In this document: in pieces, positions 3,322-38,371 of the stretch | Position numbering within the stretch: position 1 is the first letter of the stretch | Layout of the letters: every line of letters begins with the position of its first letter | Assembly: GCA_012031975.1 (NCBI GenBank) | Contig: JAAUSA010000010.1 | Span: 1-47,911, forward strand | Reading direction: 5' to 3' | Source of the DNA: Alkalinema sp. RU_4_3 | GTDB taxonomy: Bacteria > Cyanobacteriota > Cyanobacteriia > Leptolyngbyales > Leptolyngbyaceae | DNA: 47,911 bases | Notes under the pieces: generated by a model | The model's input: the letters and a program-made list of their open reading frames with translations, nothing else | What the model was told of the DNA's origin: nothing | Database searches by the model: none | Translations under genes and position numbers: made by a program

Positions 3322-4934
3322 CTAAGACTGCTTCGGGACAGTTTTAGCCTGCTTTGTCGCCGTTTTGGGCGCCGTCTTCGATCGCTGCGGCGAAATCACC
3401 AGATCCAGGGAATAATGGCCCGACCCCGTCACCTGTATTTCATAGACCTCACTTGCGGGCATCTGCCCCGTCCAGCGACGCGTCTGCTCCGCTGACTTAT
3501 CGATCGAGCCCCCCGCCTCTCGCAACAGCGTCATCCGCGCATTCCCATCGAGCACCGCCGTCATCACCTGGCTCTCAAAGGCCCGCAGGCGATAGACCTG
3601 AGGTTGGTTCTCCTGAAGCACCCCCGTCATCACCTGGGAAATCTCCCCCGGCGCAAACTCAATCAGCTTCGGCCCATTCGACTTCTGCCCCTCACTCGGA
3701 CGAAACGCCGCTGCCGCCGTCTCACCGCCTAGCACCTGATGACTGCTAGGTAACGGTTGGCGGATTGCCCAAGTTCCCACCCCACAGGTGACGAGCAACC
3801 CCGCCAGCATCAAGCGCTGGGGCGTCATCTTCGCCTGCCGAATCAGCGGCTGCCGCTGCTGATTCGGCTTGGTTGAGTGGCCACAGATGGTGTGGGCAAC
3901 GCATCCCTCGGCATTTGCGTTTCCGCCACCGCCGCATTGTGGACGCGCCCGGCTATCCAATTCGACACCTGGGATCTCGCCAAGCTTTCCCCCGGTTCCA
4001 GCCCCTCCAAATCATCCAGCACCGCCTGGGCCGACGGATAGCGATCGCCCGGATGCAGGGCCAGCATGCGCTCTAGCACCAGGGCCAAGCGATCGCTGAT
4101 TCTGGCATAGGGCTGCCAACACCAATCCAGCGTCAGCCCATCCAATAATTGCTGGGGCTCCCGGCCCGTCAGCAGCACCAAACAGGAGGCCGCCAGGGCA
4201 TAGAGATCGCTATGGGGCTGCACCGTCCCAGTCTGCAACTGCTCGGGGGGCGCATAGCCCACCTTGCCCACCCGCGTCATCGTCGAAAGGCTGGTCAATC
4301 CCCCCGTTGCCTCCTTCACGGCCCCAAAATCCAACAGCACAGGCAAGCCTAGACAATAGTCGTTCGAGCCCCCCGCACCGACACCCTGATGATCTGCGCC
4401 CTGATGACCTGCACCCTGATTGTTAACACCCTGATGATCCGCACCCTGATGAATCGATCGACCCGGCACCCCGAGACTTTGCAACACCAAATTATCCGGC
4501 GAAATATCGCGGTGGACGATTTGGCGATCGTGGAGATAACTCAATACGGGCAGTAGATGTCTAAGTAGATGCAACACCTCGGCCTCAGAAAATGTCCGAC
4601 GCATCGCCGATCGAGCCTTCAACAGCTCCCGATAGGTCCGCCCCGGCACATAGTCCTGGACCAAAAATAACCGCTCCTCCCATTCAAACGCCGCCCAAAA
4701 CCTAGGAATCTGGGGATGCTGAATCTGGTGGAGTATGCTCGCTTCTCGTTGGAAGAGAGCCTTCGCCTTTTCGACCACCATCGCATCTTGGTAGGACACT
4801 GTGAACTCCTTGACAACGCAAGGCTCATCAAAGCGCTCCTGATCCAACGCGAGGTAGGTCCGACCAAAGCCCCCCTGCCCGAGAAGATGTTTTATTCGAT
4901 ACCGCTCCCGGAGGAGAACATCGGATTCAATCAC
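3322..4934 (-). CDS. Ser/Thr protein kinase with C-terminal extracytoplasmic domain (frameshifted)
   Basis: A Hanks-type kinase. Visible elements, counted from the GTG at 4934, are the glycine loop GQGGFGRTY (about 17-25), VVKEF lysine (about 40), HRDISPDN catalytic loop (about 140), LLDFGAVKE (about 200) and GYAPPEQ. Between HRD and DFG lies an unusual insert of five pentapeptide repeats encoded by a 15-bp minisatellite. After the kinase fold the frame stops at 3843, but the overlapping frame continues with a membrane segment (MLAGLLVTCGVGTWAI) and a C-terminal domain of about 150 residues (IEFAPGEISQVMTGVL..., ending KTVPKQS). Cyanobacterial kinases often carry such a tail, so one gene of about 537 residues with a one-base deletion near 3860-3880 is favoured over two overlapping genes. 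A second GTG at 4991 would add 19 residues. Targets are unknown. Confidence 0.75.
4382..4456 (-). repeat. 15-bp minisatellite, five units, inside the kinase gene
   Basis: Five consecutive 15-bp units (4382-4396, 4397-4411, 4412-4426, 4427-4441, 4442-4456) share the core CACCCTGATGATC with a few changes. In the kinase frame each encodes a pentapeptide of type HQGAD/HQGVN/NQGAG. The period is a multiple of three, so unit gain or loss keeps the kinase frame. Confidence 0.9.
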
Positions 4935-5253
4935 GGAACTTACCTGAATGGTCCGGAGGCCCACGGACAGCCAACGGATGAGTAGATGCACTAACCTGAT
5001 GTATTAATTTTGACCTAGAAAAACCTAAGTGCCCACGGGGTCTGACCCCCACGGGCCAGAACCTTCATCAGCCCTTGATGGTCCCTTCATGAATCCTTGT
5101 TAAGCGATCCCAGCCTGGGCGGAACTAGGCTTGACTGGCTTAGAAAGTTAAGCGACACTTACAAGTAGCGGAATTCAGTCTTCAATTCTTAAGAAGTTCT
5201 GTGACGTTTCGCATCTGTTTCGATTGAATTGTTTCAATAGGTTCAGGTCTGGT

Positions 5254-38306: not shown

Positions 38307-38341
38307 ACTGTTACCACGAATGGCGCCCCTAGGCAAGGGCC
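38307..38341. repeat. left copy of a ~35-bp direct repeat flanking the AT-rich gene
   Basis: CACTGTTACCACGAATGG is identical to 40179-40196; similarity continues, with mismatches, over a total of about 35 bases (CGCCCCTAGGCAAGG against TGTCTCCAAGCAAGC). The two copies lie just outside the membrane-protein gene 38364-40103. Confidence 0.75.
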
Positions 38342-38371
38342 GTCTAAGCTAGGGCCGTCTAAGCTAGGGCC
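38336..38371. repeat. 15-bp tandem repeat at the 3' end of the membrane-protein gene
   Basis: AGGGCCGTCTAAGCT occurs twice in a row (38336-38350, 38351-38365) followed by a partial third copy AGGGCC. The stop codon of the gene (TAG, 38364-38366) lies in it. Confidence 0.85.

Follow-up and report, generated by a model that had tools for sequence, protein, structure and literature searches.

The catalytic domain of a Hanks-type Ser/Thr kinase from Alkalinema sp. RU_4_3 contains five in-frame 15-bp tandem repeats, located in the loop between strands beta7 and beta8. We consider it highly probable that this array is an in-frame expansion of a loop that was already long, disordered and fast-evolving, that catalysis was probably kept, and that the result is mostly a tolerated length variant. 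The array is real and rightly located, yet mostly explained, since the loop that houses it is already variable in relatives.

The kinase is encoded on the minus strand (3843-4991; coordinates refer to the window, that is, the whole stretch of 47,911 nucleotides that was analysed) by an open reading frame of 382 residues, whose start is putatively placed among GTG codons and whose catalytic domain is complete. The translation matches PF00069 with an E value of 7e-32 and 111 bits, against a curated cut-off of 31.7. The set of Hanks-type motifs is complete and aligned, namely, the Gly-rich loop GQGGFG (4880-4863), the VxK lysine in VVKEF (4817-4803), the alphaC Glu in REA, the catalytic loop HRDISPDN (4514-4491), the DFG (4331-4323) of DFGAV, and the (A)PPE of the APE-type motif APPEQ (4253-4239), all positions being on the minus strand. 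The matches retrieved with Foldseek from the PDB are ordinary bacterial and eukaryotic kinases.

The array occupies positions 4377-4451 of the minus strand, in reading phase with the kinase frame, and its units are, in order, CATCAGGGTGCGGAT, CATCAGGGTGTTAAC, AATCAGGGTGCAGGT, CATCAGGGCGCAGAT and CATCAGGGTGTCGGT, encoding HQGAD HQGVN NQGAG HQGAD HQGVG. Thus, four of the five units are led by a His residue, with Asn taking its place in the third. Using TRF on the window, the array was recovered at 4382-4452 with a period of 15, 4.7 copies and a score of 86, the highest of the whole window. This score is far above chance: when the window was resampled 60 times with an order-1 Markov model, each resampling yielded a best score between 33 and 71. 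The TRF result, the motif positions and the reading phase confirm what the initial annotation had proposed, namely, a 15-bp minisatellite of five in-frame pentapeptides between HRD and DFG; the coordinates given there, 4382-4456, describe the identical array in a different phase. A peptide and DNA search of the whole 5.25-Mb assembly found the array peptide and DNA unit pair at this single locus.

The analysis covered 41 other genomes of the family, the genus being represented by the source genome alone. Judged by its sequence, the gene is a membrane-type Hanks Ser/Thr kinase that belongs to an orthologous group present in most of the Leptolyngbyales searched, with 35 of 42 genomes of the order having a match to the full-length orthologue profile at E ≤ 1e-200. 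The orthologues, for instance that of Myxacorys almedinensis (NZ_WVIE01000009.1), share the kinase core, being 53-71% identical where the kinase regions align. Orthology is supported by a divergently oriented DUF2997-like neighbour (called by sequence motif match only), which is kept beside the kinase in about 22 loci; the window kinase, too, has a divergent DUF2997-like/ferredoxin neighbourhood. Two orthologues, L135 and L138 (from G017 and G027), have HRDISLEN instead of HRDISPEN as catalytic loop.

The initial annotation had regarded the region between HRD and DFG as normally short and structurally tight, which is true of most kinases but not of this orthologous group. The spacing from the HRD-Asp to the DFG-Asp is 18-22 residues in 11 paralogues of the same genome, and 19, with no exceptions, in a sister subfamily formed by the next-best matches across the phylum (about 25 loci). 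The constancy of the sister subfamily led us to reject the idea that cyanobacterial kinases generally carry an insert between beta7 and beta8. In the orthologous group, however, the spacing is 26-42 residues in 41 of the 41 other distinct genes, and it reaches 59 in the window kinase. The whole beta7-beta8 loop of the latter, QSLGVPGRSI plus the array plus AGGSNDYCLG, has 45 residues (minus strand, approximate limits 4348-4481), whereas those of the orthologues have 12-28. From the aligned sequences, the loop is long, hypervariable and fast-evolving throughout the group; orthologues L025-L027, for example, have a core identity of 0.92 and a loop identity of 0.41. The 15-bp array itself is absent from all 41 other orthologues compared. 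Without its 25 array residues, the window loop would have 20 residues; L004, the closest orthologue, has 19, and the array accounts for approximately all of the excess length over it. As the flank is also recognisable in both enzymes ((S)NDYCLG in the window and SSDYTAG in L004), the array appears to have been built within a pre-existing loop, which it expands.

The structural consequences of the insert were explored with an AlphaFold2 model of the window kinase, built on a 27-sequence alignment. In this model beta7 and beta8 comprise residues 148-150 and 197-199, and residues 155-191 between them have pLDDT values below 50, while the core is mostly above 85; strands are not predicted in the loop. 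The model of L004 has the same hairpin, with strands at 155-157 and 178-180 and a shorter low-confidence loop. The array is thus predicted to lie in a disordered surface loop outside the well-predicted kinase fold, where it would hang from the turn and could leave the core undisturbed. Since the insert leaves the core at both ends of the hairpin, catalysis is probably retained. Eukaryotic precedents exist, as the beta7-beta8 inserts of CLK1/CLK3 and SRPK1 are compatible with catalysis, and the roughly 250 residues inserted at this hairpin in SRPK1 have been reported as dispensable for it (PMC2667211; also PMC3239843). The SRPK1 spacer has the same insertion site as the array, but it is much longer (~250 residues), eukaryotic, and not a short tandem repeat. 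Literature searches returned no report of tandem repeats in the beta7-beta8 loop of cyanobacterial kinases.

A tolerated insert in a working enzyme has to be weighed against gene decay, as suggested by the region downstream of the kinase domain. The full-length orthologues have about 610-690 residues and consist, in one continuous frame, of kinase, linker, TM helix and a pair of outer repeats. In the window gene, the linker, a likely TM helix (LMLAGLLVTCGVGTWAI) and the first extracytoplasmic repeat were recognised by their similarity to orthologue C-termini (e.g. L004 and L017) on the minus strand, from 3322 to about 3900-3960, in a frame other than that of the kinase. The second outer repeat is missing; the gene departs from the one-frame arrangement of kinase, TM helix and both repeats, and fits the orthologous group by its kinase part only. 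Because Pfam gave no match to the outer domain, neither in two full-length orthologues nor in the window part, we describe it only as a two-repeat outer domain. An inverted repeat with 14-nt arms and a 4-nt loop (3837-3868) lies where the kinase frame stops. As read from the sequence, the break is either a genuine frameshift, the gene being in decay or split, or an assembly error. In the former case the gene could be decaying and its loop perhaps free of constraint; the array would then be a neutral insertion in a pseudogene whose frame was broken before the TM helix and which lost its second outer repeat. The break, which is not seen in full-length orthologues, the inverted repeat located at it and the short C-terminus are all consistent with such decay. 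However, the kinase motifs are all intact, the core is 71-79% identical to that of L004, the outer-domain segment, read in its own frame, retains clear similarity, and a single-base assembly error would give the same picture. Taking both sides together, we regard a pseudogene as unlikely.

We find it improbable that the repeat has a function that can be tuned through its length, either as a docking tether or as a His-based metal or pH sensor, with copy number adjusting kinase activity. Its unit is certainly in frame and mostly brings a His every five residues, and the position is suggestive: the beta7/8 hairpin of CLK folds over the alphaD/alphaE groove, blocks MAPK-style docking and controls substrate docking (PMC2667211; the insert is also described in PMC3239843), and the beta7-beta8 loop of MEK1 touches regulatory helix A (PMC12022096). 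Yet the array is unique to this genome, its loop is predicted to be disordered, and its copies have diverged, giving no indication of recent turnover. The position of the insert or loop is the sole feature common to the window kinase and CLK, SRPK1 or MEK1. In the CLK kinases, an unrelated family, the insert forms an ordered and conserved hairpin over the docking groove, whereas the window loop is hypervariable, repetitive and predicted to be disordered. Membership in CLK/LAMMER was rejected, the EHLAMMERILG motif being absent from the open reading frame and an ordered hairpin not being predicted.

The metal- or pH-sensitive loop proposed in the initial annotation found no support among the relatives, most of whose loops have no His and none more than two. 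A conserved His-rich or metal-binding loop was consequently rejected, as 0 of the orthologues have one, and a conserved sensory role for metal or pH is unlikely. The four His residues, at a spacing of five, could together with the nearby Cys bind metal, in which case the affinity would be accidental and specific to this lineage.

It is tempting to speculate that in the whole orthologous group the beta7-beta8 loop, hypervariable and prone to slippage, serves as an evolvable element for docking or specificity, of which this lineage would be an extreme, repeat-built version, but we give this idea little credence. Under the preferred reading of a tolerated expansion, a small effect is likeliest: the insert may shield or extend the surface by helices alphaD/alphaE, much as the CLK hairpin does. 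A catalytic domain that accepts in-frame repeats at the turn adjoining DFG is a clean natural case. It also draws attention to a hypervariable insert shared by a whole subfamily of bacterial kinases, for which we found no description in our literature searches. Should the loop control docking, the evolution of kinase specificity could readily be studied there; if it does not, it would mark a safe insertion site.

An assembly artefact within the repeat is very improbable. The source is a draft of 362 contigs, and the nearby frame break suggests that small errors are possible; however, the copies are distinguishable, a typical read exceeds the 75 bp of the array, which is embedded in a 48-kb contig, and the surrounding loop aligns with the orthologues. 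Cyanobacteria carry dispersed short repeats, but insertion of such a dispersed or mobile repeat into the kinase gene is refuted for this genome by the single locus found in the assembly.

Regarding the origin of the array, a 15-bp stretch within the existing loop would have been duplicated in frame several times in this lineage, adding 25 residues, with replication slippage or unequal recombination as the probable mechanism. The length variability anticipated in the initial annotation is borne out, for the loop, between species, as that of orthologue L018 (G034:C133), from another species, contains an exact and independent 12-bp in-frame tandem duplication, GGTTCAGACAAT, which adds four residues, while L017 has one copy. 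A fast-changing array, on the other hand, is not suggested by the five copies, which are 60-87% identical in pairs. Frequent slippage generally needs longer identical tracts. The divergence of the copies and a longest unbroken match of 10 nt between adjacent ones argue against frequent current slippage, and they do not imply that the array is unstable at present. The L018 kinase also has DFA in place of DFG.

In having a unit that is a multiple of three and a flexible location, the array resembles other bacterial in-frame coding mini- and microsatellites; these are typically found in interdomain linkers or surface proteins, whereas here the repeats are inside a catalytic domain. Such arrays are not uncommon in the genome and also occur within reading frames elsewhere: in 371 kb sampled, five arrays had TRF scores of at least 86, with periods of 12, 15 or 18, and the other four at this level that were examined all (4/4) lie within an open reading frame. 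Three repeats besides the kinase array were recorded. First, a 15-bp array of 4.9 copies with 100% matches lies inside an open reading frame at L102:16517-16590 (G000:C227), and is more promising than the window array for length variation between strains. Second, one open reading frame encodes another of this genome's kinases and also contains a 12-bp array of 4.8 copies with 95% matches (L108:18723-18779; G000:C49). Third, a 15-bp repeat of 2.4 perfect copies was found in the window at 38336-38371, at the start of a minus-strand open reading frame resembling an ABC-type export permease (GPSLDGPSLDGP), where it may sit upstream of the true start codon.
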